From positions 106,798-162,824 of the forward strand of contig JAVHLM010000015.1 in the NCBI GenBank assembly GCA_031082125.1: a stretch of 56,027 nucleotides of DNA, read 5' to 3'. The stretch is from Candidatus Eremiobacterota bacterium (lineage in GTDB: Bacteria > Vulcanimicrobiota > CADAWZ01 > Ess09-12). Made by a program: the position numbers and the translations under genes. A model generated the notes under the pieces. The model was not told the DNA's origin. It saw only the letters and a program-made list of their open reading frames with translations, and did not search any database. Shown one piece after another: positions 8,671-53,540 of this stretch (positions within the stretch are counted from its first letter, which is position 1; every line of letters starts with the position of its first letter).

Positions 8671-9246
8671 ATGCGATTCGCCATTCTGTCAACGGTCGTT
8701 GCGCTTCTGTTGCTCACCGCTCCGGTACGGGGAGCCGATGCGAAGCAGTGGGACAAGACAGTCGTTCTCAGGACAAGCCAGGGAGACATTGTGCTCAAGC
8801 TCATGCCCTACGTGGCACCCCTGGCCTGCGAGAATTTCGTGAGGCTTGTCAAGAAGGGATACTACAACGGCCTCACTTTTCACCGCGTCATCAAGGGCTT
8901 CATGATCCAGGGGGGCGATCCCAATGGCGACGGGTCCGGAGGATCATCCATCTGGGGTAAGGACTTCAAGATCGAGGCGAGCACCCAGGTGAAATTTGAT
9001 AAAGTGGGCCTTCTCGCCATGGCGAACAGCGGCCCCGACTCAAACGGCAGCCAGTTTTTCATCACCACGGGCGTGGAGACCACCAAGCATCTCAATATGA
9101 AATATACCATCTTTGGCAAAGTGACCAAGGGTATGGAGGCAGTGACGAAAATAGAAAATACCCCCACGGGCGCTGAAGACAAGCCTCTCAAAGCTCAAAA
9201 GATAATAAAGGCCTTTATCAAGGAAAGCCCCAAGGCGGGAAAATGA
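8671..9246 (+). CDS. Secreted cyclophilin-type peptidyl-prolyl isomerase
   Basis: A 191-residue protein with a Sec signal peptide (cleavage near VRGADA) and one cyclophilin domain. The catalytic motif is FHRVIKGFMIQGGDPNGDG, with the active Arg in FHR and the Gln/Gly core. ANSGPDSNGSQFFIT and the FGKV segment follow as expected. It catalyses cis-trans isomerisation of Xaa-Pro bonds in the periplasm or outside the cell. The ATG has an AAAGGAGATC site. The stop overlaps the next start (ATGA), so it is translationally coupled to the secreted glycosidase-like protein, perhaps helping it fold. Upstream lies the terminator-like hairpin. Confidence 0.92.
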   Translation: MRFAILSTVVALLLLTAPVRGADAKQWDKTVVLRTSQGDIVLKLMPYVAPLACENFVRLVKKGYYNGLTFHRVIKGFMIQGGDPNGDGSGGSSIWGKDFKIEASTQVKFDKVGLLAMANSGPDSNGSQFFITTGVETTKHLNMKYTIFGKVTKGMEAVTKIENTPTGAEDKPLKAQKIIKAFIKESPKAGK

Positions 9247-11534: not shown

Positions 11535-11554
11535 GGCAGGGTGGTGCCGAAAAT

Positions 11555-11608
11555 TAACAAATTGTTATCCTGGGGCGCCTTGTGAGGCCCCGGCTTTTCT
11601 GGTAAAGT
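11555..11608 (+). promoter_or_regulatory. Probable promoter with upstream dyad for the C11 protease gene
   Basis: A perfect dyad taacaa-a-ttgtta lies at 11555-11567. Then TTGTGA (11580-11585), 17 bases and TAAAGT (11603-11608) form a plausible sigma-70-type promoter 70 bases before the protease ATG. A GC-rich imperfect hairpin between them may end the preceding transcript. Confidence 0.4.
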
Positions 11609-11677
11609 AAAGGGAGAAGAGCCTCATCCCTGCCGGACGGCAGGACATGGCACAACAGCAACAAGAGGTGATGCGAG

Positions 11678-13171
11678 ATGGAGAGTATCCCCACTACAGG
11701 ATTGATGCGCCCCGCGGGAAAAGAGCGATTCCTGGAGAAGCTCAGGGAGCGGGAAGAAGAGGCCCGGAGGCTTGCCGCTGTCAAGGCCGAGCAAAAGCCT
11801 GTCGATACCGCCGAGATTTCCTCGACGGCCTCATCAGGCAGGCCTGCCGTCAAGGAGGGTCCCCCTGAGCCGCCTCAGGCTCCAGAGAAGAAGGAGTGGA
11901 CCGTTCTCTGCTACATAGACGGGAACAACGACCTTGAGCCTTATGCCACTTTCAGCATGCTGGATCTGGAGAAGGCGGGCTCAAGCAGAGAAGTGAATGT
12001 CCTCGCTGAGCTCGGGCGTATCTCCCAGGACAGGCTTAAGGAGATCAACGCACAGCTGGGGCGCCCCTATGAGCCCACTGGCATTGACGGCGACTGGGCG
12101 GGTGTGAGAAGGTACGAGGTGAAGAAGGATGACCCTGCCGACCCCGGAGCGGTACGCCAGATCAACTCTCCCGCTGTGGCGGACATGAAGGACGCCGACA
12201 TGAGCAATCCCGCCACGCTCAGCGATTTTCTCGTCTGGGGCGTCAAGAAGTACCCGGCGAAGCATTATCTCGTGGTGCTGATGGATCACGGCGGTGGATG
12301 GCTCGGTGCCTTTACCGACGACGCCTCGGCGGGAGGCCACCACATTATGACGACACCGCAGATATCCCAGGCCTTCAAGGAGCTGGAAAAGCAGACCGGC
12401 GTGAAGCCGGATGTGGTGGACATGGTGGCCTGCCTCATGGGGAGCGGCGAGGTGGCCCACCAGGTGAAGGACTCCATGAAATACCTGGTGGCTTCAGAGG
12501 AGATAGGCACGACGGATTCCTTTGAATACAGCCCCAACGTGGAATTTCTCCAGAAGAAGGTGGCCTCGGGCGAGGAGTTCACCGCCAGGGACCTGGCGCG
12601 CCACCTGGTGACCTATTACGCCGACAGGCCCTCAGCCTTTGTCACCAAGTCCGCCATCGACCTTTCTAAAATGGGGGAGGTCAAGGACGCCATTGACGGC
12701 CTTGCCAGGGCCCTTATTGCCACCGATGCGAGCCCCGCCGCCATCAAGGAGGCAATCAACAAGGCTCAGAACTTCAGCCGTGTCTATTATCTCGAGTTTT
12801 ACTCCCACTTCAGGGACCTTTACAGCGTGGCGGAACAGCTTGCAAAAAGCGACAAGATTGCCGATCCGAAAGTCAAGGAAGCCGCAGGCATGGTGATGAA
12901 ATCGGTGAAGGAGGCTGTGATAGAAAAGGTATCCAGCCCTTACTCCCGGGAGGAGGTCCTGGATGTGAGCCAGTCCCCTGACGGGAAAGAGGAGATAACC
13001 CTTATGAAGGTCTCCAGGGGAAAGATGGAGGCTGAAGGCATCTCCATCTACGCGCCCACCGACAAAAAATACACTGATGACGGCGCCACGATGGGAAGAT
13101 ACGGCGCCCTGGACCTGGCCAGGGAGACCCAGTGGGACGAGTTTCTCAGGAAGAACACCATGGAGTCTTGA
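11678..13171 (+). CDS. Clostripain-family (C11) cysteine peptidase
   Basis: A 497-residue protein. Residues 1-70 are Pro/Ala/Glu-rich and charged with no Sec signal. From about residue 73 (WTVLCYIDGNNDLEPYA) the clostripain fold begins. The catalytic His is H204 in VLMDHGGGW and the catalytic Cys is C252 in VDMVACLMGSGEV, both in the canonical C11 context. The family cleaves after Arg or Lys and often activates itself. A lysine-rich linker could be an autoprocessing site. The missing signal peptide suggests cytoplasmic action or a non-Sec export route. The N-terminus (MESIPTTGLMRP) loosely resembles that of the RelA-like protein at 46419. A secreted chagasin-type inhibitor is encoded elsewhere in the window (48128), but chagasins inhibit papain-type enzymes, so no link is claimed. 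Confidence 0.88.
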   Translation: MESIPTTGLMRPAGKERFLEKLREREEEARRLAAVKAEQKPVDTAEISSTASSGRPAVKEGPPEPPQAPEKKEWTVLCYIDGNNDLEPYATFSMLDLEKAGSSREVNVLAELGRISQDRLKEINAQLGRPYEPTGIDGDWAGVRRYEVKKDDPADPGAVRQINSPAVADMKDADMSNPATLSDFLVWGVKKYPAKHYLVVLMDHGGGWLGAFTDDASAGGHHIMTTPQISQAFKELEKQTGVKPDVVDMVACLMGSGEVAHQVKDSMKYLVASEEIGTTDSFEYSPNVEFLQKKVASGEEFTARDLARHLVTYYADRPSAFVTKSAIDLSKMGEVKDAIDGLARALIATDASPAAIKEAINKAQNFSRVYYLEFYSHFRDLYSVAEQLAKSDKIADPKVKEAAGMVMKSVKEAVIEKVSSPYSREEVLDVSQSPDGKEEITLMKVSRGKMEAEGISIYAPTDKKYTDDGATMGRYGALDLARETQWDEFLRKNTMES

Positions 13172-37084: not shown

Positions 37085-39673
37085 CTATATGGTTTCCTCC
37101 CAGAAGGCGCCTGCGGCATCAGGTGGTGCAGTGCCTTTGGCGCCGATATTTTTCAGGATAAGCTCGAGAGCCTTGTAATGCTTTTCAAAGAGGGCCGCAA
37201 GCGACTGGGGCTTCACACCCGGCACGGAAAGCGAGGCCACGAGCTCCACGGCCTCGGTGCGCAGGAACTTCATAAGCTCGGGAAGCTCATGGGCTCTCTC
37301 GTAGTCCCCAAGGATTTCCAGGAGAGCCTTGCGGGGCTTTTCCATGAGCTCGCCGTCGGGGAGCTGTCCTTTTTTAAGCTTTTGGAGGGCCTCCTCGACC
37401 GATTTCCTGTACTCCTCGAGGGCCTGGCCGAAGGGGATGGAGGGGGCCTTCTGCCTTTGCATCTGCGGTTTCTTCTCCATGGGCTCGGGCTTCGGCACGA
37501 GTTCATTCCTGACAGGGCTCGTGGACTTGCCTTTTGCGGCGATATCTCCTATTGTCTTCGCCATCCTTGAGATTGATTTCATAGGACCGGGCATTCCTTC
37601 AGCGGCTATCGCACCCTCAAAGCACTCATCCATCGCTGGGGAGAAGCACTCAGCTGCCGTTATCATCGGCATCGCTGCTGAGAGACTTGCCATGAAGCCC
37701 GGAGCAGGGGCACCTGCTCCCCTTGGCGCGCTTTGCTGCTTGAGCTTCATGTCCCACTGGTCCGGCATTTCCACGGGCTGCACCACCGTTCGCCGCGAGC
37801 CATCCTTGTTGACGATCTCGCTCTCATCGACGACGATGAATGCCGTGAAGCGAGAGAGGATGCTGTGGCCTGTAGATATGGCGATAATTTCCCTCTTTAT
37901 CTCCTGCTGCCTCTGGGGCTCTATCCTGAATCGGTCTTCCAGGTCGGCAATGCGGGATCGCGCCCAGAGGGAAGAGAGGGCATGGAGGGGCAGTTCCTCG
38001 GGGGTTATGGTCTCCTCAAAGGAAGAGCCGTCGATATGGCGCCCCTTTACTTTCAGCGCTCCCACTGCCTTGTGGGTGAAATAGACGCAGGTTGCCTTCC
38101 CCGCAAAGAGATCGGCAACGGGGAAAGGTGCCAGCGACGCCCTGTCGGCCTGGGCACCTTCGTCGGCTATCGAGATGTCAGTTACTATGGGAGCGCCGAT
38201 TTCGCGTCCTATGGTCCTGAGGGCTTTCTCGAGCGACTCTCCCGGCGCCACAAAGGCGGCGGTGCCTCCTCCAAGGCCGGCAAGCCTCTTCAGGAAGCCT
38301 TCGTTGACAGCGGTATCAATGCCCACCGTGAAGATCCGCGTGCTGCCGAGAGACTTCTGGATGGTCTTGAGGACCCGGGACTCATCGCCGATCTGCCCGT
38401 CGGTAAGGAGCACGATAAGGGGCAGGGCCGCCGATTCCTGCCGCGATGAAATCTTCGAGAGGGCATCGTTTACCGCCCGGTCAATCTCTGTTCCTCCGCG
38501 GCTGTCAATGCCGCGCAGGAACCTGTTCCCCTTCTCCTGTCCATCCTCGTCGGCATGGACGAAGCAGTGCACCTTGCCCTCGGCTGACTGCTCCATCCAT
38601 TCCACCTTGTCGTCAAAGGCCAGGATGGCAAAGCGGTCCCTGGGCTCGAGGGTTGCCAGCAGGAGCGCGCAGGCCCTCGCTGCCGAGGCCATCTTGATGC
38701 CTTCCATCGAGCCGGAGCGGTCAAGGATGAATACGACATCACGGGCAAGGCCCCTGAAGCCTTCCCTGAGAGGAGGAACCAGTGAGATCATGCCGTACCG
38801 TTCTCCCTGAGCGCTCAGGGCCGTGATGAACCTGGTGGTGACTTTTTCGCCGGCGAGGCGCCAGCGAAGCACGAAGTCCCTGTTGAGGCGCTCGCTCTCG
38901 CGGGCGAGTTCCACGGTGATGGTGCCGTTATCGTTTGACGTCCTGGTGGCGTGCTGTGAGCACACCAGGTCGGCAAAGCCTTGTTCTCCCTTGTGTGAAG
39001 ATGGCAGGAACTCCACCCTGATGCCGAGGCGCACGGCGGGATCCATCCCGGGGACAAGGCGCGGCGGGGTAATGCGGGAGGCGTCAGGCACCACGTCGGT
39101 GTCATCTTCAACACCCCGGCCCACCTGATCCCTTTCCAGGGGCGCCCCGGGGATATAGCGGGGCGCCACCACGAGAGGCAGCCTGATTTCCGTCGAGCCG
39201 TCCTCAAAGTAAGGGAGCCCCTCACAGTAGGTGATCTTGACGGAAATCTCCTCTCCGGGAGGCACGTTTCCCACCTGCACGGTGAACACATCATCGCGCT
39301 CCTTTTCCAGCAGAGCGGCCCTCTTGCCGTCACTGAGGGCCTTCTGGTAATCCCGGCGGGCCTCCTCGCGCTCCTTCACGACTCCCTTTATCACCCTGTC
39401 CTTCACCTTCATCTCGAAGGAAGTGACGGCGGCGCCCCCTGCGAGGGGAAAGATGTAGACCGCCTCCAGGTGCTCAGTGAAGGTATTCCTGAATACCTCT
39501 GTCACCGTCACCTCGGCGATACGCTCGGTGACGCATGCGGTGATATCCACCGAGGCAAGGGGAAGCGCCACTTTGCCGCCGGGAGTGCTGAGGGTGAGCA
39601 TCCCGAGGGCCCTCTTGAGGGGCTCGCCTTTCAGCTCGAGAAGAGGGAGTTCTGTCTTTGTCGTTCCAGCCAT
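37085..39673 (-). CDS. VIT domain and von Willebrand A domain protein
   Basis: An 862-residue protein without a signal peptide. Residues about 20-150 form a VIT domain (ITACVTERIAEVTVTEVFRN, then YIFPLAGGAAVTSFEM). About 310-480 is a vWA domain with MIDAS motif FILDRSGSM (Asp318) and LLTDGQIGDES. The C-terminal 300 residues are helical and charged, with a Met/Pro-rich linker (about 640-700). VIT-vWA proteins, like the inter-alpha-trypsin inhibitor heavy chains for which VIT is named, are thought to mediate protein-protein contacts. The ATG at 39673 has an AAAGGAG site. It is 19 bases downstream of the MerR gene in one operon, divergent from the secreted CHAT locus. Confidence 0.87.
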   Translation of the reverse strand: MAGTTKTELPLLELKGEPLKRALGMLTLSTPGGKVALPLASVDITACVTERIAEVTVTEVFRNTFTEHLEAVYIFPLAGGAAVTSFEMKVKDRVIKGVVKEREEARRDYQKALSDGKRAALLEKERDDVFTVQVGNVPPGEEISVKITYCEGLPYFEDGSTEIRLPLVVAPRYIPGAPLERDQVGRGVEDDTDVVPDASRITPPRLVPGMDPAVRLGIRVEFLPSSHKGEQGFADLVCSQHATRTSNDNGTITVELARESERLNRDFVLRWRLAGEKVTTRFITALSAQGERYGMISLVPPLREGFRGLARDVVFILDRSGSMEGIKMASAARACALLLATLEPRDRFAILAFDDKVEWMEQSAEGKVHCFVHADEDGQEKGNRFLRGIDSRGGTEIDRAVNDALSKISSRQESAALPLIVLLTDGQIGDESRVLKTIQKSLGSTRIFTVGIDTAVNEGFLKRLAGLGGGTAAFVAPGESLEKALRTIGREIGAPIVTDISIADEGAQADRASLAPFPVADLFAGKATCVYFTHKAVGALKVKGRHIDGSSFEETITPEELPLHALSSLWARSRIADLEDRFRIEPQRQQEIKREIIAISTGHSILSRFTAFIVVDESEIVNKDGSRRTVVQPVEMPDQWDMKLKQQSAPRGAGAPAPGFMASLSAAMPMITAAECFSPAMDECFEGAIAAEGMPGPMKSISRMAKTIGDIAAKGKSTSPVRNELVPKPEPMEKKPQMQRQKAPSIPFGQALEEYRKSVEEALQKLKKGQLPDGELMEKPRKALLEILGDYERAHELPELMKFLRTEAVELVASLSVPGVKPQSLAALFEKHYKALELILKNIGAKGTAPPDAAGAFWEETI

Positions 39674-39692
39674 GGTATGGGCTCCTTTCGCT

Positions 39693-40196
39693 TCAGCAAG
39701 AAGCATTTTTTAATGCGGCAAGGGCCGCTTTGAACCTTTGAAGCAGCAGTGAGGGGTCGCCCGGGGGCTCCCACCCTTTTTCCGCCACGATCTTGAAGCC
39801 GGGCTCAAGGATAATCTCCTGGAGCGAGATGACGGGGAGCGGCCGAGGACCTTCATCCTTCCGGGCCTCCTCGACGGCGGTGAGCATGGCCTCCAGCTCA
39901 TCATTGCTCAGCCCGTAGAGTTTTTCCTGTATCCGGGAGAGGGGAAGTGCGAGGGCCTGGAGAGCCTTGACTGCCATGAGCTGGAGCACATGGCGTTTCC
40001 CGTAATGGGCGTGGCGGCCCGACTGGGAAGGCCTGTCAAGAAGGCCCAGCGTGGTATAGTACCTGATGGTCCTTGTATCGGGCACCGAGGAGACACGGTT
40101 GTCGGGGAGGCTCCTGTCAATGCCCCTTTTCCTCAGCAGGTTCTCCACTTCCCTTGAAAGCTCTTCTATGGTGAGGTGTCCATCTTGCAGGTTCAT
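39693..40196 (-). CDS. MerR-family transcription regulator
   Basis: A 167-residue protein. After a 40-residue N-terminal extension (LTIEELSREVENLL), the winged helix RTIRYYTTLGLLDRP then GRHAHYGKRHVLQLM matches MerR regulators, with a following helix pair LPLSRIQEKLYGLSNDEL. There is no Cys effector site, so it is not a metal-sensing MerR; the C-terminal part (about 115-165) may sense a protein or small molecule. The start codon lies only three bases or so from the predicted transcription start, and there is no Shine-Dalgarno sequence, so the mRNA is probably leaderless. It is likely to bind the dyad over its own promoter and control the VIT/vWA gene downstream and perhaps the CHAT genes. Confidence 0.87.
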   Translation of the reverse strand: MNLQDGHLTIEELSREVENLLRKRGIDRSLPDNRVSSVPDTRTIRYYTTLGLLDRPSQSGRHAHYGKRHVLQLMAVKALQALALPLSRIQEKLYGLSNDELEAMLTAVEEARKDEGPRPLPVISLQEIILEPGFKIVAEKGWEPPGDPSLLLQRFKAALAALKNASC

Positions 40197-40235
40197 CTTG
40201 ACAGTATTATAGCAAATTACTGTAAAACTGTCAAG
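40197..40235. promoter_or_regulatory. Divergent promoter region inside a perfect 9-bp dyad
   Basis: cttgacagt (40197-40205) and actgtcaag (40227-40235) are perfect inverted repeats. Minus strand: TTGACA (40234-40229), 17 bases, TATAAT (40211-40206), fully consensus, with the start point expected near 40199. Plus strand: TTGACA (40198-40203), 17 bases, TGTAAA (40221-40226), a weaker promoter facing the zinc-finger/CHAT genes. An inner dyad acagta-N11-tactgt (40201-40223) is nested inside. Confidence 0.8.
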
Positions 40236-40312
40236 ATATGGGGAAAAGGTCCATTTCCCCGGGGGGAAGAATATTCATAGAGAAGAGTCAAGAAAAACAA
40301 GGCGGTGTCACA

Positions 40313-40744
40313 ATGAAAAAGACCATGACATGGGGCGCAAGGGCGGCAGTGTTTTGCCTGGCGGCAATTCTGCTTTTTTCCCTCGGGGCGATGTGGGCGA
40401 AGGAGGGAGGGCTCAAGATAACGGTGAACAATGCCCCTTCAGAGATAACGCCCCTTGAGAGCGGCGGCACTCTTCTCGTGCCCCTCAGTTTTCCCATTGA
40501 AGAGGGAAAGAGCACATGGACTGTCACCATGGAATATGACAAGGCCAAGGGGACCCTCAATATCCAGAAGACCCTCTACAAGGAGAAGCTCCGCGGCGAT
40601 ACGAAATGCCAGCGCTGTGACGGCACGGGGAAGTGCCAGGCATGCTACCCCGCGGGATCGGGGAAGAATGCCGTTGGCAATCCATGTTACATCTGCGACG
40701 GCACGGGGAAATGCTTTTACTGCAACGGTGAGGGGAAATACTGA
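40313..40744 (+). CDS. Secreted zinc-finger protein (paralogue 1)
   Basis: A 143-residue protein. A signal peptide or N-terminal anchor (about 1-29, ending AMWAKEG) is followed by a beta domain (ITVNNAPSEITPLESGG, LLVPLSFPIEEGKSTWTV) that resembles the copper amine oxidase N-terminal domain. Last come two DnaJ-like Cys-rich repeats, CQRCDGTGKCQACYPAGSG and CYICDGTGKCFYCNGEG, eight Cys able to bind two zinc ions. It is the paralogue of the gene at 44726, and the two flank the TPR-CHAT protease. It could be a substrate, activator or adaptor of that protease. The ATG at 40313 is supported by the signal peptide; the ribosome site is modest (AAGGCGG). Confidence 0.82.
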   Translation: MKKTMTWGARAAVFCLAAILLFSLGAMWAKEGGLKITVNNAPSEITPLESGGTLLVPLSFPIEEGKSTWTVTMEYDKAKGTLNIQKTLYKEKLRGDTKCQRCDGTGKCQACYPAGSGKNAVGNPCYICDGTGKCFYCNGEGKY

Positions 40745-40797
40745 GAATAAGGGAAGAGCAGCCACCTGGCAGGCTCGAGAGAAGACGATAGGTGAGA

Positions 40798-43700
40798 ATG
40801 GTGAAAAGAGTCTTTCTTGAGGGAATAATTCTCTTTCTCATCTTGGCGGGAATGGCTCCTCTGCAGGCAGGAGAGCCGGCAGGGGGCCTTGAGAAGGGCA
40901 TTCTCTGCCTTAAAAAGAGCCAGTACGCCGAATGCCGGAGAGAGCTTGATGGGGCGATCAGGATCGCCAGGGGAAAAAAGGACAGAGCGGCAGAGGCGAA
41001 AGCGCTTCTCTGGCGTGCCCGCCTTTCCTTCGAGCTCTGCCTTTATGACAGCCTCTTCCGGGATGCCTCCGACGCAGAGCGGATCTTCACCGCCATGGGA
41101 AACAGCGAGGGAATTGCTTCCGGCCGTATCCTCACCGCATGGTATTATCTTTCAAAAGACAGGCGCGCAGAGGCCTGGAAAGTCCTTGAGGAGGTCTCCG
41201 GGCTGAAAGACAGCTCGCCTGAGAATGCGGCGGATTATTATCTCCTGAGAGGAAGGCTTTTAATCGCGCGCGAGGCTTACGACATGGCGGGGAAGAACTT
41301 TGAAGAGGCGTCGAAGCGAGCCGCGGCCTGCGGCGACAGGGAGCGCTCTCTGCTGGCGGCATTGGGAGCCGCGCGGCTTGCCTCTGCTGAAAAAAAATTT
41401 GAAAAGGCTCATCAGGCCTGCACCACAGCAATGGACGATGCCAGAGAGTCAGGGAGGCCGTATCTTGCGGCGCTGCTTCTCCAGGCACAGGCCGAGGTGA
41501 GCCGGGCGGAAAACCGCACCGACGAGGCCATGGTAGATTTCTTCTCTGCTGCGGTCATGTTTGAGAATCTCGGGAATAAAGGCAAGGCAGCCCAGGTAAA
41601 CCTCCAGCTTGCCGATCTCTTCCAGGGCCTCAGCAGGTGGGATAAGGCTACACTTTACGGCAGAAAGGCCCTCTCGCTTTACCAGTCATCCCACGATTAC
41701 TATGGCACGCTCATCTCATGCTATGCTCTTATCTCACAGATTTACACGACGGAGGATAAATCCGGTTTAGAGCCCCTGCTTGCTCAGATGAGAGAGGCCT
41801 CCGCCAGGTGCACAGATCCCCGGGACAGGGCCTGGGAAAAGCAGCTCGAGGGGAATTTCACTGCCTACCTCAAGAATGACAGAATTGCATCACTCTCCCT
41901 TTATAAGGAGAGCGTTGATCTCTACAGGGCATGCGGCGATAAAAGAGGCCTTCTCAAGAGCCTCATGGCAGAGGCAGGCGTCCTGAGTTTCCTTGCACGT
42001 TACAATCAAGCGATAAAGCTTTACCGGGAGGCGCTTGCTCTTTCTACATCGCTTCCTCCCCTGCCGGAGGGCGATGACAGGGAGTTTTTCCATTTCCAGA
42101 GCCCCGGTGCGATAAGTGCGAAGATAGGTGACACCCTTCTCATGCAGTCAATGTACCGGGACGCCCTGGAGTATTATGACAAAGCCATTGCCTTCAACGA
42201 AGGCGATACCCATACCTTTGACAGGATTCAGAACCGTTTCGGCGCCATTATCGTGTCTATCGCCACCTATGATCTGGAGCGGGCAGAGAAAGATATCAGG
42301 ACATCACTCAGTGAGATCAAGACTCTCACAAAGCCCCCCCAGAGAGCTGTCTCATATTATCTCATCTCAACCGCTCTGTCCATGTCCAGAAGCTCCCAGG
42401 GGATAAAAGGTTATTCCCGCTTCACCTCGATGAAGGAATCGGTGAGCGGGGAGCTCATGAAAAAGATCTTTTCCGATCCTCTTCTTCGCGAGCAGGTGCT
42501 CAGCGGCTACAGGGACTGGATTGCCTATGCCCACGAGAAGAAAAGCAAGCTGGATGAAGGGATGGCCCACCTTTTCCTCGGTTTTTTCTATTTTTCAGGG
42601 GGGAGGAATGATGAAGCCATCACCTATTATGGAAAAGCCAGGGAGCTCTTCATGCAGGGAGGCGCCCCCATGTGGGAGCAGATGGGCTATATTTACATGT
42701 CCCAGCTCTACATGGAAGAAGGGAAGAAGAGAGAAGCCCTGAGGCTCCTGAAAGAGGCGGTAAGCTCCAAGGGACCAGGCCTGCAGCCTGACATGAAAAT
42801 GAGTTTTCTTTGCACAATGGCCGCGCTGGCGCGGGACATCGAGGGGCCGGAGAAAGCCCTCCATTATTACCGTGAAGCCCTCGACGAGGCGAAGAAACAG
42901 CAGAATCCAAGGCTTGTCCCCCATATCCTGGTGGGGATGAGCAATAAATACCACGAGATGGGGAATTACCAGGAATCGAGCAGGTGCAGTAATGAAGCGC
43001 TCTCTTTGCTGAAAGAATCGGGGAGCAGGATGATTGCCGCGCTTGCCAGCTTTTACCTGGGGAGAGATGCCGAGGCGCTTGGCAGGGATGAAGAGGCCAT
43101 TGCCTTTTACCGGCGGGCAATGGATGGCTTCAGAGCGATCGGGAGCATTTACGACGAGAGAGATACGGTGCTGAAGCTCGGCGGTCTCCTCGAAAAAAAG
43201 GGGAGCGCGAGTGAAGCGCTTGCCCTTTACCGGGAGATGATAAAAGAACTCTCTGACATGACCCGGCGTGACCTGACAGGGCAGAAGGCAGGCAGGGGAG
43301 ATGCCCAGGTAAAGGAGCTTTTTGAGAGGACTCTCGCGATTCTGATAAAGAACGGCAAATATGATGAAGCATTAAGCTGTTTTAACCTCTCGGCAACTTT
43401 TGACGTTGCCGGTAATATTGACCTTGTGAAGTTCTCTAAAAATGATGAAAAACTCAAGAAACTGCTGGAAAGGATGCAATCGCTGGGCTCCGCGATGAAG
43501 ACCATCCAGAGTGATCTTGAAAATGTAGATGATAAGAAACGGACTGATTTTCTCTCGGGAATTCTCGCGAAGACCCGCCAGGAGTTCTTTGCCGTGATCA
43601 ACGAGATCAGGGAGAAAAACCCTGACTATGAGCAGTTTCTCTCCATGCAGGGAGCCGATCTCGCGGCGCTGCAGCCCATCATTCCCCAGGATACACTCCT

Positions 43701-44667
43701 TCTCCAGTATTACCCGGCCAGGGAGGCCCTCTATATTTTCCTCGTGGACAGGGCCCGCTTTTCCATAAGAAAAGTGGAAGTGCCCCGTGAGCAGCTTTAT
43801 TCACTCGTGAGGCAGTTCAGGGAGGAACTCTTCTCGCGCCGTCACGGTGCCTTCCCGGGGAAGAGCCGTGCTCACCTTTACCGTTATCTCCTTGCGCCTG
43901 TGAAGGATGAGATAGCAAAGAAGAAACAGCTTGAAGTGATCCCCGGCGGCCTCCTATGGTACATTCCCTTTGAAGTGCTTGGCGATGAGGGAAAACCGAG
44001 TCTCATCGAGGAAATTTCGGTAGGATACCTCTATTCTTCAGATATAACAAAGCTTTTTGGCGCATCAAAAGGAGCATCTGTTTCACCTTCAAGCCTCCTC
44101 GCCTTTGGGGCTCCCGCTGGATCTGATGTGCCCTCGTCACTCCAGGAGGTGCAGGATATCGGAAAGATTTTCAGCTCTTCCAGGATCTACCATGGCAGCG
44201 AGGCAACAAAGGAGCGCTTCACAAGGGAGGCACCCTCGGCTTCGATTATACACCTTGCCACTCACAGCAGCCTCAACAGAGATGATATCAATAAGTCATA
44301 TATCCAGTTCTCAGGAGGCGAGGGAAAGCTCTACCTCGGAGACATATATGGGCTCCAGGTTCCCGGGGCGTCAATAGTGGTCCTCAGTTCGTGCGAGAGC
44401 GCCCTGGGGGATGAGAACCCGGGGAGGGAATATGCAAGCCTTGCATCGGCCTTCGCCATCGCGGGAAGCCCCTCGGTAATCGCTTCTCTCTGGCGGGTAG
44501 AGGACAAGGGAACGGCTCTCCTGTTCAGGGAGTTCTATTCGGGCCTCAAGGAAGGCCTTGGCAGGTCAGAGGCCCTCAGGAGGGCGAAGATATCACTGAT
44601 GGGCAAAAAAGACACGGCCTCCCCCTTTTACTGGGCAGGTTTCATCCTGTTGGGCGACTGGCGCTGA
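40798..44667 (+). CDS. Secreted TPR-CHAT caspase-like protease
   Basis: A 1289-residue protein with a signal peptide (cleavage near PLQAG). Residues about 35-860 form a TPR array of some 18-20 helix pairs (for example DALEYYDKAIAFNEGD, EAITYYGKARELFMQGG). A coiled linker (about 880-950) leads to a C-terminal CHAT domain (about 990-1285) with the catalytic dyad His1156 (IIHLATHSS) and Cys1199 (VVLSSCESALGD), then the conserved FAIAGSPSVIASLWRVED and a final YWAGFILLGDW. CHAT proteases such as Craspase are switched on by partners docking on the TPRs; most are cytoplasmic, but this one has an export signal. Small secreted zinc-finger paralogues lie on both sides. The ATG at 40798 has an AGGTGAGA site. 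Confidence 0.9.
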   Translation: MVKRVFLEGIILFLILAGMAPLQAGEPAGGLEKGILCLKKSQYAECRRELDGAIRIARGKKDRAAEAKALLWRARLSFELCLYDSLFRDASDAERIFTAMGNSEGIASGRILTAWYYLSKDRRAEAWKVLEEVSGLKDSSPENAADYYLLRGRLLIAREAYDMAGKNFEEASKRAAACGDRERSLLAALGAARLASAEKKFEKAHQACTTAMDDARESGRPYLAALLLQAQAEVSRAENRTDEAMVDFFSAAVMFENLGNKGKAAQVNLQLADLFQGLSRWDKATLYGRKALSLYQSSHDYYGTLISCYALISQIYTTEDKSGLEPLLAQMREASARCTDPRDRAWEKQLEGNFTAYLKNDRIASLSLYKESVDLYRACGDKRGLLKSLMAEAGVLSFLARYNQAIKLYREALALSTSLPPLPEGDDREFFHFQSPGAISAKIGDTLLMQSMYRDALEYYDKAIAFNEGDTHTFDRIQNRFGAIIVSIATYDLERAEKDIRTSLSEIKTLTKPPQRAVSYYLISTALSMSRSSQGIKGYSRFTSMKESVSGELMKKIFSDPLLREQVLSGYRDWIAYAHEKKSKLDEGMAHLFLGFFYFSGGRNDEAITYYGKARELFMQGGAPMWEQMGYIYMSQLYMEEGKKREALRLLKEAVSSKGPGLQPDMKMSFLCTMAALARDIEGPEKALHYYREALDEAKKQQNPRLVPHILVGMSNKYHEMGNYQESSRCSNEALSLLKESGSRMIAALASFYLGRDAEALGRDEEAIAFYRRAMDGFRAIGSIYDERDTVLKLGGLLEKKGSASEALALYREMIKELSDMTRRDLTGQKAGRGDAQVKELFERTLAILIKNGKYDEALSCFNLSATFDVAGNIDLVKFSKNDEKLKKLLERMQSLGSAMKTIQSDLENVDDKKRTDFLSGILAKTRQEFFAVINEIREKNPDYEQFLSMQGADLAALQPIIPQDTLLLQYYPAREALYIFLVDRARFSIRKVEVPREQLYSLVRQFREELFSRRHGAFPGKSRAHLYRYLLAPVKDEIAKKKQLEVIPGGLLWYIPFEVLGDEGKPSLIEEISVGYLYSSDITKLFGASKGASVSPSSLLAFGAPAGSDVPSSLQEVQDIGKIFSSSRIYHGSEATKERFTREAPSASIIHLATHSSLNRDDINKSYIQFSGGEGKLYLGDIYGLQVPGASIVVLSSCESALGDENPGREYASLASAFAIAGSPSVIASLWRVEDKGTALLFREFYSGLKEGLGRSEALRRAKISLMGKKDTASPFYWAGFILLGDWR

Positions 44668-44725
44668 AGAGGAGGGAGGGAGAGGCGGTGAAAGGGAGAA
44701 TAGGTGAAATGAGGAGGTGATTGTC

Positions 44726-45163
44726 ATGGTGAAATTGTTCCACAGGTATGGCCTGATTCTGATTCTTCTCGCAGTCCTTGCAGGGGCTCTGATCTTCTCT
44801 CTCAATGGTGCTGCCGCGAAGGGAAAATCCCCCGCGGTCTTTATCAACAGCGCGGCTTCCGCCATTGTTCCCGTTGAGTCAGGGGGCTCCCTTTTCCTTC
44901 CCCTCAACTTTCCCCTCGAGGAGGGGAAGAGCACATGGACTGTCACCCTTGACTATAACAAGGAGAAAGGGACCGTCAATGTGCAGAAATCCCTGGCAAA
45001 GGAGAAGCTCCGAGGTGACACGAAATGCTCGCGCTGCGGCGGTTCCGGCAAGTGCCAGTCCTGCTACCCCGCGGGGTCAGGCAAGAGCATCAATGACGGT
45101 GTCTGCAACGGTTGCGACGGAAACGGGAAATGCTTTTACTGCAACGGTGCGGGAAGCTATTGA
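44726..45163 (+). CDS. Secreted zinc-finger protein (paralogue 2)
   Basis: A 145-residue protein with the same plan as the one at 40313: signal or anchor helix (about 8-33), beta domain with ESGGSLFLPLNFPLEEGKS, and a double Cys-rich finger (CSRCGGSGKCQSCYPAGSG, CNGCDGNGKCFYCNGAG). The two share long identical blocks (GKSTWTVT, KEKLRGDTKC, CYPAGSGK, NGKCFYCNG-like) but differ in the N-terminal half, so they are duplicated and diverged rather than recently copied. The ATG has a strong GAGGAGG site, 58 bases after the CHAT stop. Retention of paralogues on both sides suggests that both work with the protease. Confidence 0.82.
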   Translation: MVKLFHRYGLILILLAVLAGALIFSLNGAAAKGKSPAVFINSAASAIVPVESGGSLFLPLNFPLEEGKSTWTVTLDYNKEKGTVNVQKSLAKEKLRGDTKCSRCGGSGKCQSCYPAGSGKSINDGVCNGCDGNGKCFYCNGAGSY

Positions 45164-45204
45164 CAGGGAGTCCGGGAGCCAGAATTTGTGAGAGGTGTAC
45201 CGCA

Positions 45205-46320
45205 ATGAAAACACTCCAGTTGAACAGCCATTACTGCCAGACCTACCTTGTCGGTGAAGAGGGCTCAAGGAAGGCTATACTCATCGACCCGGTTCTGGAT
45301 GGTGTTGACTCATACCTTGCCTTCCTTGAGAAAGAAGGGCTCGCCCTCAGTCATGTTATTGACACCCATACCCATGCCGATCATATCTCCGGCGCCGCAG
45401 TCCTTGCCGACAGGACAGGCTGTCTGTACCTCATGCACAGCAGGTCGCCCGCACCCTGTGCAACCATGCGCCTTCATGACGGCTCTGAATTCAAGGTGGG
45501 GGCCCTCACCGCCAGGGTGATCCATACACCGGGTCATACCAGGGATTCCATCTGCCTGGTCTTTCCTGACAGGATTTTTACCGGCGACACGCTCTTCCTT
45601 GATGACGGCGGCGCAGGAAGGGATGACCTTCCCGGCGGTGACGCCGGGGGGCACTGGGACAGCCTGGAGAAAATCAGGGCTCTCCCGGGCCACCTGGTGG
45701 TATATCCTGCCCACGAATACAGGAACAGGAAGCCCTCGACCCTCAACGAGCAGAAGGAGCGCAATCCCCATTTCAAAAGAAGAACAAGGGAGGAGTTTAT
45801 CAGTTTTGTCGAGGACCTGAAGCTTGGCCCGGCCGACTGGATGAAGGAGGTTCTCGCCGCCAACGCCACATGCGCCCGTGATCCCGGCAAGGTATGGATT
45901 CCTGCCGATCTCCCCTCGTGCGAGGTGAAAGGCACGCTGGAGAAAAATGTCAACGAGCAGGAAGTGCTCACCCTGTCTGCCGCTGATCTCAAGGAGAAGC
46001 TTGAGAGAGGGGAGACCCCCTTTCTTCTAGATGTCCGTGAAGCCCGGGAGCTTACAGGCGGAACGGGACACCTCACCGGCATAGTGCATATCCCCATAGG
46101 ATCGCTGGCCAGGCGCCTCGGCGAGCTTGACCATGCGAAAGAGAGGGAGATTCTGACGATATGCCATTCGGGAGGAAGAGCCCACACGGCGGCGCAGATG
46201 CTTGCCCTAGCGGGGTTCCACAAGGTGAGGAAGCTGGAAGGCGGCATGATGGCCTGGCACAATGAAGGCTATACAGCGCTCTATACGGCGCCAGACCATG
46301 AAAAGTCTGCTGAAAATTAA
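45205..46320 (+). CDS. Persulfide dioxygenase-rhodanese fusion
   Basis: A 371-residue protein. Residues 1-240 form an MBL-fold ETHE1-like domain (THTHADHISGAAVL, HTPGHTRDSICLV, FTGDTLFLDDGGAGRDD, VYPAHEY), the pattern of iron persulfide dioxygenases that oxidise glutathione or other low-molecular-weight persulfide to sulfite. Residues about 260-365 are a rhodanese domain with active-site Cys320 in ICHSGGRAHTA. Such fusions (as in Burkholderia PRF and Staphylococcus CstB) couple persulfide oxidation with sulfur transfer. The ATG at 45205 has a GAGGTG site, 41 bases after the zinc-finger gene, so it may be in the same transcript. No sulfide:quinone oxidoreductase is near. Confidence 0.9.
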   Translation: MKTLQLNSHYCQTYLVGEEGSRKAILIDPVLDGVDSYLAFLEKEGLALSHVIDTHTHADHISGAAVLADRTGCLYLMHSRSPAPCATMRLHDGSEFKVGALTARVIHTPGHTRDSICLVFPDRIFTGDTLFLDDGGAGRDDLPGGDAGGHWDSLEKIRALPGHLVVYPAHEYRNRKPSTLNEQKERNPHFKRRTREEFISFVEDLKLGPADWMKEVLAANATCARDPGKVWIPADLPSCEVKGTLEKNVNEQEVLTLSAADLKEKLERGETPFLLDVREARELTGGTGHLTGIVHIPIGSLARRLGELDHAKEREILTICHSGGRAHTAAQMLALAGFHKVRKLEGGMMAWHNEGYTALYTAPDHEKSAEN

Positions 46321-46418
46321 CATTTTTTTAACACAGGGCACATATACTTCCCCGGCGCAATGATATATCATAGAGAGGGAATCTCCAGACCAAGGTGTTC
46401 CAGGGAGGATATGCTTAT

Positions 46419-47726
46419 ATGGACAGCAAGCCGATAATAAGTGGTTTTACTCCTTTGCAGGGGGCCCCGCCTCTTCAGGGCATCTCACCCCAGAAAACAC
46501 TGCCTGCAATAGAGCCGCTCCACGAGGAGACTTCGCAGGCGCCCGGCGATTCCGTCGATATCAAGCTTCCGTCGGCAAAGGCGGAAAAGACTGAGAAGCG
46601 GGAAAAACCTGCCGCGAAGGAGGTAAAGGCCGAGGCTCCCCGTGCCCCTGTCCCTTCTCCGTACGAAGTCCTTTCATCGCTCTCCCTGCCTGCAACGCAG
46701 AATGCGGTGGTAGCGGGAAGTGCAGCCAACCCCACCTCGATAGCGCTTTTTGACGAGTTCTCCGATGTGAGCAGCAAGGATGCGCCCCTCGTTGCAAGGC
46801 TGAGCCAGGAACTGGCCGCACAGCCAGGTCTTGCTCTCACGATTGAGAAGTATCTTGGCGATTCATCACACCCGATGAATATCGTGGCATCACTCCGGGA
46901 TCCGGAGAGAAGAGAAGCGGTCATCGCCGAGCTTAAGGACATGGCATCCAAGAAGCCTCTCTCAAGCGAGGAGCTCAGGACCGAAGTGGACAGGCACTTT
47001 GATCCTTCAAGGCCCCTCATGCGCTCGAATGATGCCGAGTTTAATATTGACACCGCAAGCGGCCAGAAGAAATCGGAGCTCCTCAAAGAGAAGCTTCTTG
47101 CCAGGGACAGCCTCCTTTACTCCACGGGCGACAAGCCTTCACCTGAGCAGTTCAGCGCTCTCGATGAGCATGCCGGCAGACTGAGGAAGGATATCATGCC
47201 GGCCCTTGTCAGGGAGCTCAACGCTGTCGTTGAGGGAATGCCCAGGGAGCAAGGCTATCCCGACATAAACGCGAGGGCCAAGAGAGCGGACGGCATAGTG
47301 GACAAGATCCACCGCATGAGGGAGGGAAATGACGGGAAGGCCCCGCGGCCGGATTACTGCCTCGCCGATATGCCCGATGCCGTGGGCGGGAGGATCACCG
47401 TGAGGACCCCCCAGCAACTCGAGCAGGTCATGGTGCGCCTTGAAGAGCGTTTCGGCAAGGAGAACATCCATGAGAAAGACAGCTTCTATTCAAATCCCAA
47501 GAAGAAATACAGCCCTTACCGGGTTCTCACCTACACGGTGACCGTGGACGGCGTACCCTGCGAGGTGCAGCTCACGACATTGAAAGCGAGCCTGGCGGCC
47601 GATCTCTGGCATAACACGGGCTACAAGAACCTCCATCCCGATCTTCCCAGATCCGTGCTGGACTCCCTGAGCGGGATGCAGAGGGCCGTCGCTGCAGAGG
47701 AGCACAGGCAGATCTGCTCCACCTGA
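46419..47726 (+). CDS. RelA/SpoT-like nucleotidyltransferase with long disordered N-terminus
   Basis: A 435-residue protein. Residues 1-85 are Pro/Lys/Glu-rich and probably disordered; 85-270 are helical. The C-terminal part (about 280-430) matches the alarmone-synthetase fold: RAKRADGIVDKIHRM, then MPDAVGGRITV with the metal Asp320, NPKKKYSPYRVLTYTV in place of the usual GYRSxH, and CEVQLTTLKASLA with Glu382, the second catalytic acid, ending at WHNTGYKNLHP. The catalytic Asp and Glu are kept but the GYRxxH segment is changed, so it may make (p)ppGpp, modify another target as toxSAS toxins do, or be inactive. The ATG at 46419 has a GGGAGG site. No neutralising gene is obvious, though a small unknown follows. 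Confidence 0.72.
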   Translation: MDSKPIISGFTPLQGAPPLQGISPQKTLPAIEPLHEETSQAPGDSVDIKLPSAKAEKTEKREKPAAKEVKAEAPRAPVPSPYEVLSSLSLPATQNAVVAGSAANPTSIALFDEFSDVSSKDAPLVARLSQELAAQPGLALTIEKYLGDSSHPMNIVASLRDPERREAVIAELKDMASKKPLSSEELRTEVDRHFDPSRPLMRSNDAEFNIDTASGQKKSELLKEKLLARDSLLYSTGDKPSPEQFSALDEHAGRLRKDIMPALVRELNAVVEGMPREQGYPDINARAKRADGIVDKIHRMREGNDGKAPRPDYCLADMPDAVGGRITVRTPQQLEQVMVRLEERFGKENIHEKDSFYSNPKKKYSPYRVLTYTVTVDGVPCEVQLTTLKASLAADLWHNTGYKNLHPDLPRSVLDSLSGMQRAVAAEEHRQICST

Positions 47727-48803: not shown

Positions 48804-51800
48804 CTAAAAATTATCGTCAAGCCTCTGGTAGTGGAGCACATGGAGGGGCTCAGTGAATTCAAGCCCGAAATTCAGGGGCAGATCAAATGGAATCTCGCTT
48901 TCGTCCATAAGCGGGAGTCCTGCAAGGGAAACGGTCTCCTCCTCGAGGCAGTCCTTCCATTTCTGGTAAATATCGCCGCTCTTTCCCTCGAGTGCCTGAA
49001 GGGCTTTTTCCGACGCGTTCCTGTCGCCCTGCAGCTTGAAGAGCACCGCCCTTCCTATAATGGCGTCGGTCAGGTCAGGTTGAAGCGAGAGGGCCTTGTT
49101 GAAATATCTTTCTGTGCCCATGACCTTTTTGAGGTGAAGGGACAGCACTCCCAGGTTATACCAGGCCCACCCCTTCTTCTCACCGGTCTCGCCGGCCTTG
49201 GACAGGCTCTCGAAGCTCTCGGCGATCTTTTTCTGCTCAAACTCTATGAGGCCCCGCTGGGTCCACCCATAGAAATCGAAGGGCACGTAATAAAGGGCCT
49301 TCACGATGCTCCGGTATGCCTCGTCAAGGTTTCCCCGCTTCCGGTACGCGGCGCCGCGGCACATCCAGGCATAACCGTTTTCAGTGTCGATCCTCAGGGC
49401 CCTCTCTGCATAGTGGAGGGCCTCGGCAAATTTCCCCCGCTTGAGGCAGAATATTCCCAGGTTGGACCAGCCCTTGGTGAAGCGGTTCTGGATATCGAGG
49501 GCTTTTCTGAAGTAGCTCTCCGAGGTTTCGTAATCGTTCACCTGGAAGCATGTGGCGCCGAGGAGGAGCCATATCTGGGGATCAAGGGGGTAATGGACAA
49601 GAAACTTCTCGAACTGGGAGAGGGCCTCGTTGTAACGGTGCATCATGTAGCAGGATATTCCTTTCCCTATCAGGCCTGGACCGTTGAGGGGATCAAGGGA
49701 GAGTATGTTCTCAAAATATTCAAGGGCCTTTTCGGGAAGGTGTGCCGTGAGGTGAAGGGCGCCGGCGCCTTTCTGCAGGTGGATGTTGTCGGCCTTAGAG
49801 GCAAGGCCGTCCTTCATCACGGTAAGGGCCTCATGGAGCTTTCCAGAGCTTGCGAGCGATCGTGCCCTCAGCTGGTGGAGCAGCACGGAGTAGTGAGTGA
49901 GGTGGTAGAGGCTTGAATAAAAGCCGATGAATTTCCCGAAATTTCCGAACTCCACGAAAATCTGGGCCTTCTTGATGGTGAGCAGGGACGATGCCGGCTT
50001 GAGCTTGATGGCTTCCTCGATAAGCCTCGTGGATTCCTTTTCATTTTTTGCCTCTATCTGAAGGTTCGCCGAGAGGTAAAGGCCGATTACGGCGGCGTTG
50101 TCCATCTCCGAGAGCTTCTTGTAAATGCGCAGGGCTTCCTGCGTCTTTCCCGAGAGCTCGTCACATTTTGCCGTCCCCAGCACCGCAAAAGGGTTTGAAG
50201 CGCTGTAGTGAAGGCTCCTTGCAAAAAATTTAGATGCCCTCTCGTGCCTTTTCAGATACACGGCCAGGATCCCCCTGAGGTTCCAGTAAAGGGCGCTCTT
50301 TTTTGAGAGGGTCCACCTGTTGATGAAATTCTCCAGGAGTTCGATGGTAAGCAGGTAAAGCTCCTCCTCCTTCTGGTTCTCTATAAGGTAGCTGAAATAT
50401 GCAAGCCATGAATAGGGGTTCTGGGGAAGGAGGCCTATCCACCGGTGATAGTAGTCTTCAAGAGTCCCCGGATCAATATCCTGAGGCGCGCTGAGAATCC
50501 TGTACTTATAGTAGCCCGGTGAATAGGGAGACATGGTGGCAAAGGTGCTGAAGCACTGCTCGGCTTTCTCATTCTTTCCCATGGTTTTCAGCAGCTTTCC
50601 CATGCATAACCAGCAGCAGGCCATGGAGGGGTCAAACTTGAGGGCCTGCTGAAAGGACTCAAGTGCCTGGTTTTCATCGCCCCTCCTCATTTTTCTGAGG
50701 CCCCGCACAAACCAGTCGCCGGCCGTTGACGGCGGTTTCGCCTCTTTCTTGAAGAGCCCTCCCAGGAACCCCTTTTTGTCCTCGCGGGCTTTTTTTGCAG
50801 CCTCGTTCTCTTTCTGCGTCACGTCCAGGAAGTTGCGGGCCTCCTGGAAGTCATCCCTGAGGAGAAGGGCCTGCTCGCAGGAAAAGCAGGTGTCGTCATA
50901 AGCTTCCGCCATTTTTTGGATGCGGGCGAGAAGATACCACAGATCTGCATCAGCCTTGATGGCTATCTTGTCCTTGAGGTGGGTGATGGCGTCATCGATA
51001 TCGCAGAAAGTAGCGAGCAGGGTGTGAGGATCGCCGTAAAGCTTTTTTTCCTCAATGGGGCGGTATCTTGTGATTGCCTGGATGATTTTTTCCTTTTCCC
51101 CGTTCCAGTAGGAAGCTGAGTCCGATATGAGGCCCGCATCCCTGTTGGAAATATCCTGCGAAAGGATCTGGGAGCATACCGAGAGCGCTTTTTTAAAATA
51201 CCCCATACTCAGGTGGATCCTTGCCATTTCCAGCATTATGGGGATATCGCTGAGGCCTTCGCTCAGTGCCTGCTTCAGGCATTGAAGTGCACGCTCGCGG
51301 AGGGTCATCTCGGCAAGGAGCCTCGCATTGCCGAGATAACCGCCGCTGAATTTCCTGTCGAGCTGGAGAGCCTTGTAATAGCTGGCGCGGGCCTTGTCAT
51401 AATTCTTGAGCTCACGGTAGTTGTTCCCTATCTTCACATTGGTTTCAGGATCCTGGGGAGAGAGGGTGAGGGCTTTCTGGTAATGGTTTATCGACTCCTG
51501 GTAAAATCCAAGACGGTACAGGGCTTCTCCCCTTGCGATCCACGCATTGACAAAGCGGGGATTGATTTCGATGGCTTTGGAGAAGCACTCATCGGCTTCC
51601 TGAACCATCTGGTACTCCAGCAGGACATTGCCTTTCTCCGTAAGGAGCTCTTCATTCTCGGGGAAAAGCGCGAGGGCCCTGTTGAAGCACTCGAGGGCTC
51701 TTTTCCTGTGGCCCATGCGGGCCAGGACCTTTCCCTTGCTGGTGAAAACCTCTGCCCTTGTAGGGTTCAGCTCTAGGGCGAAGTCAAAGCAGTTAAATGC

Positions 51801-53540
51801 CTCCTCGACGGCTTCAAGGGCAAGAAGGGCCTCGCCCTTGTAATACCAGGACTCCCAGTTTTCGGGATCTTTCTGCATGGCGTCGTTGAAGCACTGGAGA
51901 GCTTCCTCAAACTTCTTGAGCTCCAGGAGGGAGCGGCCTTTCATGATGAGGGCCTTTATTGACTCCTCATTGATGATGATAGCCTGATCAAAGGTGATCA
52001 CCGCCTCACGGTGCCTTCCAAGTGAGGCGAGGGAAATACCCTTATTGATCCAGTCATCCTCGGAGAAAATGTCCTCGGTCTCCTCGAGCGCGTAAGGGGT
52101 GCCAAAAGTCTCTTCATACACTTTTTCAAGCCTTTCCTTGATGGTGAAAAAGCTGTCAAAGCGCTCCTCGGGGTTCTTTTTCACGCAGGTGAGCAGGATC
52201 TCGCCGAGGGAATGGGGGATCTCGGTATTGTAATAATCCGGTGATTCAGGCTCCTTGAAGAGGTGGTTCTGCACCACCTCCGAGGGATCCTCGTTGAAGA
52301 AGGGATTGAAGCCTGTCAGCATCATGTAGAGCACTATGCCAAAGGCATAGATATCGGTCTTTACGCTCGAGGACTTGAGATCAGTGAAAAGCTCCGGCGC
52401 CATGAAAGGCAGAGTCCCTGCCATCGAGGTAGAAGAGCTTGTTACCTTCTTGCCACCATCCTTGAGGGAGATGACAAGCGGCTCGCCTTCTACGGGATTG
52501 TCATCAAATATTTTTCCCAGGCCGAAATCTGAGATCTTGAGAATCCCATCCCTGGTTATGAGGCAGTTTGAAGGCTTGATGTCCCTGTGGATAAGGCCCA
52601 GCTTACGGAATGCGTAATGCATTCCGTCACAGAACTGCATGGCGAAGCTCAGGGCCTGCTTGAGGATGAGAGGGCCCTTTTTCAGCTCATCCTCAAGGTT
52701 GGAGCCCTGCACATACTCAAGGAATATGCAGGGCTTCCCCTGTACGATCCTTACCAGCTTTGCCTGCACGATATGGGGATGGCGTTCCAGGTTGATCCAG
52801 ATCGCCGCCTCCTTGATGAACTGATTGATGACCCGCTCATTCCAGAGGTAACGCTGCTGGTAGGTCTTGAGGGCGAAAAAGGCCACCTCCTCGGGATCAA
52901 AGACCACATAGACGATTCCCATCCCGCCTTTCATGATCTGCTGGACGGTGTATTTTCCCTCTATTATGGCGCCCTCTTTCCACTTCTCCTCCTCTGTGGA
53001 GGGCTTTTGCACCTTTCTGAGATCCTCGGTGATCGCCTCGATTGAGGGCGCTTTTTTGGCGCTCCCTTCGGGCATTGCCTCGACAATCTGGGCGCAGTAA
53101 GCCCCCGCGTCCTGGATCGTGGAAAAGACGGGGAGAAAGATTATGCTGCTTTGTATGCACTCGACAAGAGGCCTGTCAATATAAGCTCTCTCCAGTCTCG
53201 AGCAGATCTCCTCGGCGATCCATTTGAAGCTCTTTTCGAAAATATCAACAGTCCTTGGAGTGACATAGTTCTTCCTGGAAGTGCTGTCATGGCTCTCCTT
53301 TGCCGTGAAGGTGAAGAGGCGGGGATTGATCTTTGTGCCGTCAATATGGTAGAAGCCCTCCATCCCCCTTACCTTCAGAATAAGCAGGGGGGGCTCTTCC
53401 CTGCTGAAGGTCTTCACCTTCACGGCAAAGGCATGGGTGATGTCTATCCAGCGGAATGAAAATTCCCCGTAGTCAAGGGTGACATTGGCACTCTCGTAGC
53501 TGCCGTTCAGCAGCGCGATCCGGGTAAACTTAATCTCCAT
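48804..53540 (-). CDS. Giant Ser/Thr protein kinase with TPR array
   Basis: A 1578-residue protein without a signal peptide or membrane helix. Residues 1-190 are an unknown N-terminal domain. A Hanks-type kinase domain follows (about 198-480): GGMGIVYVVFD glycine loop, Lys225 in FALKTYQQ, LIHRDIKPSNCLI with Asp320, ISDFGLGKIF, and MAPELF, all catalytic residues present. From about 500 to 1480 a long TPR array (some 25 repeats, for example ALECFNRALALFPENEELL) binds partners. It is cytoplasmic and probably phosphorylates proteins docked on its TPRs. No phosphatase of the PP2C type is near. The ribosome site is weak. The region is minus-strand alone, with antisense frames that are shadows. Confidence 0.92.
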   Translation of the reverse strand: MEIKFTRIALLNGSYESANVTLDYGEFSFRWIDITHAFAVKVKTFSREEPPLLILKVRGMEGFYHIDGTKINPRLFTFTAKESHDSTSRKNYVTPRTVDIFEKSFKWIAEEICSRLERAYIDRPLVECIQSSIIFLPVFSTIQDAGAYCAQIVEAMPEGSAKKAPSIEAITEDLRKVQKPSTEEEKWKEGAIIEGKYTVQQIMKGGMGIVYVVFDPEEVAFFALKTYQQRYLWNERVINQFIKEAAIWINLERHPHIVQAKLVRIVQGKPCIFLEYVQGSNLEDELKKGPLILKQALSFAMQFCDGMHYAFRKLGLIHRDIKPSNCLITRDGILKISDFGLGKIFDDNPVEGEPLVISLKDGGKKVTSSSTSMAGTLPFMAPELFTDLKSSSVKTDIYAFGIVLYMMLTGFNPFFNEDPSEVVQNHLFKEPESPDYYNTEIPHSLGEILLTCVKKNPEERFDSFFTIKERLEKVYEETFGTPYALEETEDIFSEDDWINKGISLASLGRHREAVITFDQAIIINEESIKALIMKGRSLLELKKFEEALQCFNDAMQKDPENWESWYYKGEALLALEAVEEAFNCFDFALELNPTRAEVFTSKGKVLARMGHRKRALECFNRALALFPENEELLTEKGNVLLEYQMVQEADECFSKAIEINPRFVNAWIARGEALYRLGFYQESINHYQKALTLSPQDPETNVKIGNNYRELKNYDKARASYYKALQLDRKFSGGYLGNARLLAEMTLRERALQCLKQALSEGLSDIPIMLEMARIHLSMGYFKKALSVCSQILSQDISNRDAGLISDSASYWNGEKEKIIQAITRYRPIEEKKLYGDPHTLLATFCDIDDAITHLKDKIAIKADADLWYLLARIQKMAEAYDDTCFSCEQALLLRDDFQEARNFLDVTQKENEAAKKAREDKKGFLGGLFKKEAKPPSTAGDWFVRGLRKMRRGDENQALESFQQALKFDPSMACCWLCMGKLLKTMGKNEKAEQCFSTFATMSPYSPGYYKYRILSAPQDIDPGTLEDYYHRWIGLLPQNPYSWLAYFSYLIENQKEEELYLLTIELLENFINRWTLSKKSALYWNLRGILAVYLKRHERASKFFARSLHYSASNPFAVLGTAKCDELSGKTQEALRIYKKLSEMDNAAVIGLYLSANLQIEAKNEKESTRLIEEAIKLKPASSLLTIKKAQIFVEFGNFGKFIGFYSSLYHLTHYSVLLHQLRARSLASSGKLHEALTVMKDGLASKADNIHLQKGAGALHLTAHLPEKALEYFENILSLDPLNGPGLIGKGISCYMMHRYNEALSQFEKFLVHYPLDPQIWLLLGATCFQVNDYETSESYFRKALDIQNRFTKGWSNLGIFCLKRGKFAEALHYAERALRIDTENGYAWMCRGAAYRKRGNLDEAYRSIVKALYYVPFDFYGWTQRGLIEFEQKKIAESFESLSKAGETGEKKGWAWYNLGVLSLHLKKVMGTERYFNKALSLQPDLTDAIIGRAVLFKLQGDRNASEKALQALEGKSGDIYQKWKDCLEEETVSLAGLPLMDESEIPFDLPLNFGLEFTEPLHVLHYQRLDDNF

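Follow-up and report, generated by a model that had tools for sequence, protein, structure and literature searches.

Bacterial caspase-like proteases are numerous, and few besides Craspase have an assigned partner or substrate. In Craspase, which belongs to type III-E CRISPR, the TPR-CHAT protease Csx29 works together with Cas7-11 and target RNA. Csx29 has a dedicated, genetically linked partner and substrate, Csx30, which it cuts in a loop, although the interdomain linker had at first been the expected site (PMC10028731). Another described CHAT protein, DdvA (PDB 8rot, 8rw5), is a protein of the membrane whose PDB title names it a transmembrane anti-sigma factor; its CHAT part probably lies outside the cytoplasm. 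In eukaryotes, the intracellular clan CD protease separase, which has a CHAT-like fold, is under the control of a dedicated partner, securin.

The locus described here lies in a window (the whole stretch of DNA that was analysed) of 56,027 nucleotides from a Candidatus Eremiobacterota bacterium. Three collinear plus-strand genes, each with a signal-peptide-like leader, encode a small protein (F1), a TPR-CHAT cysteine peptidase and an F1 paralogue (F2), as the preliminary description of this DNA had it. Export of a TPR-CHAT protein is already known; what is new is a conserved family of small partner proteins, which we call finger proteins. Based on sequence comparison, our tentative preference is to regard F1 and F2 as extracytoplasmic partners dedicated to the exported peptidase, most probably with a control or inhibitor role.

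The TPR-CHAT peptidase and described CHAT proteins

The peptidase (40798..44667, +) is predicted from its ORF, Pfam matches and AF2 model to comprise, over 1289 aa, a leader, a TPR array and a C-terminal CHAT domain. The best start is ATG 40798, with GTG 40792 two codons earlier. The CHAT domain (43873..44658) matches Pfam PF12770 with E 7.8e-60 and 203 bits, against a curated cut-off of 24, and TPR-type and CHAT families account for all Pfam matches of the protein. Alignment places the catalytic residues, numbered from ATG 40798, at His1156 (codon 44263..44265, within HLATH) and Cys1199 (codon 44392..44394, within LSSCES). This dyad is invariant in 42/42 aligned CHAT domains. Leaders were judged by eye and with a hydrophobicity rule. 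That of the peptidase reads MVKRVFLEGIILFLILAGMAPLQA, followed by GEP, and a hydrophobicity scan found no second hydrophobic segment in the protein. The signal peptide and intact dyad reported in the preliminary description were thus both found. The AF2 model of the last 415 residues (pLDDT 88.3) has a caspase-like fold, matching Csx29, DdvA, separase and gingipain in a Foldseek search of the PDB.

Among PDB folds, Csx29 matches best (8eey_B, E 5.3e-18); it shares the TPR-CHAT architecture and His/Cys dyad. In contrast to Csx29, the window protein has an export leader and a far larger TPR array, and it scores 15.3 bits against the NCBIfam Csx29 model, for which the cut-off is 300. The neighbouring ORFs covered by a profile scan matched families other than Cas7-11 (gRAMP) and Csx30. 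PADLOC made no defence-system assignment apart from a generic TPR model. Searched against PDB sequences, the CHAT profile matches DdvA best (3e-16); DdvA is also a strong match by fold and keeps the dyad motifs ATH and AACE. Unlike DdvA, the window protein has a leader that runs directly into the TPRs, together with a separate finger partner; Pfam and hydrophobicity searches found no DdvA-type anti-sigma domain with a membrane-spanning segment ahead of its TPR-CHAT region. Separase is a further fold match (5fby, E 1.6e-11).

The preliminary description had presented export of a TPR-CHAT protein as a novelty. This view did not hold. Leaders are present in all eight CHAT proteins taken from the window genome. 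The sample included 67 complete CHAT ORFs, and a simple rule, which undercounts, gave leaders to at least 43 of them. DdvA is a precedent outside Craspase. Plasmids from cyanobacteria and Bacteroidota (L174, L172) likewise encode leader-bearing CHAT proteins. So it is the finger partner that is unusual, and not export, which is common. A literature search on exported TPR-CHAT or serpin-CHAT proteins found nothing on point. On a Caballeronia plasmid (L173, 3645-10972, +), a TPR-CHAT gene lies beside genes for an FhaC-type transporter and filamentous haemagglutinin.

Finger proteins and their distribution in the phylum

F1 (40313..40744, +; ORF from ATG) is a small exported protein of 143 aa that combines a leader, a beta domain and a putative metal-binding domain with four CxxC motifs, as judged from sequence and AF2. 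F2 (44726..45163, +) was recognized from its ORF and by sequence comparison; it starts at ATG 44726, preceded by the ribosome site GGAGGTGA, and its longest frame opens at GTG 44717. Both N-termini are hydrophobic by eye and by the hydrophobicity rule. Identity between the two proteins is 57% for the complete sequences and 62% for the mature forms. They fit the earlier picture of two diverged, secreted proteins with a beta domain bracketing the peptidase. The metal-binding domain (Cys99 to Cys137, 40607..40723, in F1; 45026..45142 in F2) was delimited by sequence and alignment. All eight Cys are conserved in both proteins. In the AF2 model of F1, the beta domain (about residues 32-92) has a pLDDT of about 85, and the leader and linker score low. 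The "double DnaJ-like zinc finger" proposed previously is DnaJ-like, with CxxCxGxG-like motifs and shortened spacing; it is one centre with four CxxC motifs rather than two fingers.

A PDB fold search with the finger model gave nothing significant (best E 0.66), and the beta domain matched no known inhibitor fold. No resemblance between securin and finger proteins is known. Several candidate relationships were set aside: matches of the family profile to antibody-like and designed proteins in the PDB are due to chance, a copper-amine-oxidase N-terminal (stalk) identity for the beta domain lacks Pfam support, and weak Pfam matches to PepSY and Emfourin are at noise level and went unused.

A search of 149 genomes from the phylum for the finger family gave a count of 17 full or near-full genes. 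Thirteen of them, in three families, adjoin an exported TPR-CHAT gene. This set consists of F1 and F2, ten genes in L054, L056-L060 and L063-L066, and the gene in L055, where the contig end falls inside the homologous downstream ORF and a CHAT neighbour is presumed. All finger-linked CHAT proteins are exported by the leader rule and have an intact catalytic dyad. In relatives of the window locus there is a single finger gene, upstream of the CHAT gene and usually overlapping it. Specifically, in families f12 and f13 the CHAT frame is already open when the finger stop codon is reached, and most pairs have plausible CHAT starts that lie about 19-51 nt within the finger gene. Given the single finger gene of relatives, F2 is, from sequence comparison, a duplicate specific to the window lineage, and the "pair" is a local duplication. 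Thus, of the dedicated pair of secreted partners first described, the dedicated exported partner stands, recurring in f12 and f13, and the pair does not.

Further lines bear on this association. The dN/dS of finger genes (about 0.05-0.35) shows purifying selection, and this, together with their place beside CHAT genes in other families, indicates pairing beyond chance. Finger and CHAT divergences are closely correlated (Mantel r 0.97, 0/10,000 permutations), as shared descent would also produce. Genomes G018, G044 and G050 of f12 each contain two separate paired loci, and the genes flanking finger-CHAT pairs differ between families. Groups g17 and g26 are single genera within each of which the pairs are orthologous loci, so the independent lineages number three, plus one case involving a different protease. 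In that case (L067 in G026, 8261-10001, +) there is overlap between the finger gene and a gene for a secreted caspase-like peptidase of family C14 (PF00656, 2e-21), which suggests that the finger tracks clan CD proteases and not CHAT alone; it is a single instance noticed post hoc. The other finger genes without a CHAT neighbour are the orthologous L061 and L062 and the truncated L068. Because the neighbour is absent there, the partner may serve another role at these three loci.

Seen from the protease side, the association is narrow. A finger neighbour accompanies 11 of the 78 CHAT genes examined. The expectation that most CHAT homologues would keep one is therefore not borne out, and a majority lacking it had been named beforehand as grounds for refutation. 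All 11 fall in one supported clade (100/99) of 30 rows, within which they do not form one group.

An exact-peptide scan of genome contigs with F1 confirmed no relatives, and a scan of contigs with a 5-row finger alignment returned four already known loci and unrelated secreted CxxCxGxG proteins from other phyla. Two exported proteins from other phyla (L104, 5621-6676, +; L106, 9890-10672, +) have many CxxCxGxG motifs and are without CHAT neighbours. The plasmid collection contained no full-length finger protein. In the window genome, a finger-only exported protein (L015, 8709-9517, +, G000:C20) is followed by an ORF that by eye is sigma-factor-like.

The upstream slot and control of the peptidase

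The nearest relative of the window CHAT protein is a paralogue in the same genome (L022; 62% identical, 100/99 support) that has no finger gene. In the finger's slot, 8 nt upstream of this CHAT gene, is a gene for an exported serpin (11116-12327, -, G000:C24). The match to PF00079 (2.3e-105, 353 bits) is above the cut-off, and the hinge, EEGTVAAAVT, is by eye of the inhibitory type (P0001). Serpins target serine proteases and some cysteine proteases, clan CD caspases included. A serpin beside CHAT genes as a general rule was rejected, as only one serpin match in the phylum adjoins a listed CHAT gene.

At 2.9 kb downstream of F2 is the one I42 gene detected in the genome (48083..48799, +), whose exported product is a cysteine-peptidase inhibitor with two chagasin-type (I42) domains. 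That this double-domain protein is an associate of the CHAT module is possible but unproven. Chagasins are known for papain-family targets, and papain-family peptidases in the window genome amount to two partial matches. The serpin and I42 neighbourhoods, one instance each and noticed post hoc, favour a putative control function for the upstream position and a putative active, extracytoplasmic cysteine protease as the TPR-CHAT product. Apart from CHAT genes, the window genome has nine C14 matches in total, and two C14 caspase-like clusters of three genes each lie at G000:C11:111384-116987 and G000:C14:4672-10823.

The control role that we favour draws on gene order, the leaders, the intact dyad, the CHAT fold, the conserved pairing and the serpin in the upstream slot of the nearest paralogue. 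Because the upstream position is shared and the genes overlap in relatives, the protease is probably synthesized and exported along with its partner. Following joint translation and export, the finger partner would bind the CHAT protease outside the cytoplasm and would either keep it inactive or restrict its activity to the right target. Release might come from metal loss, another ligand or a cut at the partner's Arg-bearing linker. It is in this sense that we infer the "proteolytic switch" of the preliminary description. A bolder proposal, which we consider doubtful, is that the finger defines a new class of regulators for extracytoplasmic clan CD proteases: cotranslated with CHAT or, in one genome, C14 proteases, it would restrain them, swap with a serpin and fire by cleavage of the Arg linker. 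This conserved pairing of an exported protease with a small partner, whose sister unit in the same genome carries a serpin, offers a tractable case for the study of extracytoplasmic protease control.

Alternative roles for the finger partner

We favour control over three other functional readings. By analogy with Csx29 and Csx30, the finger proteins could be the substrate of the CHAT protease, with the linker between beta and metal domains cut to free a signalling or effector fragment, which we regard as unlikely. The two domains are joined by a lower-confidence segment in the AF2 model; this linker is basic and conserved, ending in [LV]RG ahead of the first Cys in most finger proteins, and Arg94, before that Cys, is kept in 14/15. 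The Asp 37 residues past the catalytic Cys, invariant in 42/42 aligned CHAT domains, is presumably the counterpart of the separase residue that holds the P1 Arg. Counter to this, the Arg is shifted two positions in the C14-paired finger protein of G026, and the basic linker may serve binding instead. The Csx29 parallel itself cuts both ways, offering a precedent for a single dedicated, genetically linked substrate and one that is cleaved in a loop, not between domains (PMC10028731).

In place of regulating activity, the finger could help the large TPR-CHAT protein to fold or be secreted, as a chaperone in the manner of a DnaJ centre or BSD2, which seems improbable. The four CxxC motifs and GxG spacing resemble the DnaJ central domain and BSD2-type zinc proteins, and cotranslation immediately ahead of the client would suit such a role. 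However, finger proteins (143-148 aa) gave no J-domain match in a profile scan, are exported, have an extra beta domain and, in some members, show Asp or Glu in place of Cys. No member of the family passes any Pfam cut-off; against DnaJ_CXXCXGXG (PF00684), F1 scores 12.7 bits where 32.7 are needed, and the best family member reaches E 0.037. Moreover, the majority of CHAT proteins that the same genomes export manage without a finger.

The metal domain could also gate the protease by sensing metal or redox state outside the cytoplasm, a reading to which we give still less credence. The exported location and the eight Cys conserved in f1 and f13 would suit a sensor. Against it, all ten f12 fingers have Asp for Cys111 and Glu or Asp for Cys125, with the other six Cys kept. 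One metal site seems to have exchanged ligands, being Cys4 in some lineages and Cys2 with Asp and Asp/Glu in another, which speaks against conservation of a CxxC thiol or redox role there. The pattern agrees better with a structural metal site, and the zinc-sensor option raised previously is weakened. Finally, incidental adjacency of unrelated genes held in synteny would accord with orthology of the pairs within genera, with only three independent lineages and with the 4/17 finger genes lacking a CHAT neighbour, but is very improbable given the gene overlaps, the differing flanks, the two paired loci in each of three genomes and a chance adjacency estimated at about 0.3% per finger gene (about 10 CHAT genes in roughly 7,000).

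Leaving the favoured control role aside, the surroundings of the module include several other features. Divergent from it, a MerR-type regulator gene overlaps a gene for a VIT/VWA-domain protein (37085-40196, -). Between the MerR-type gene and F1 is a near-palindrome (40195..40237; 21-nt arms, 86%) that overlaps a sigma-70-like promoter (12/12) on the minus strand. It is possibly an operator, with a putative tie to the module. Downstream are genes for a rhodanese domain fused to a metallo-beta-lactamase fold (45202-46320, +), directly followed by a RelA/SpoT-region protein (46395-47726, +), and for a 1578-aa protein with many TPRs and, by eye, an apparent Ser/Thr kinase domain (48804-53540, -).
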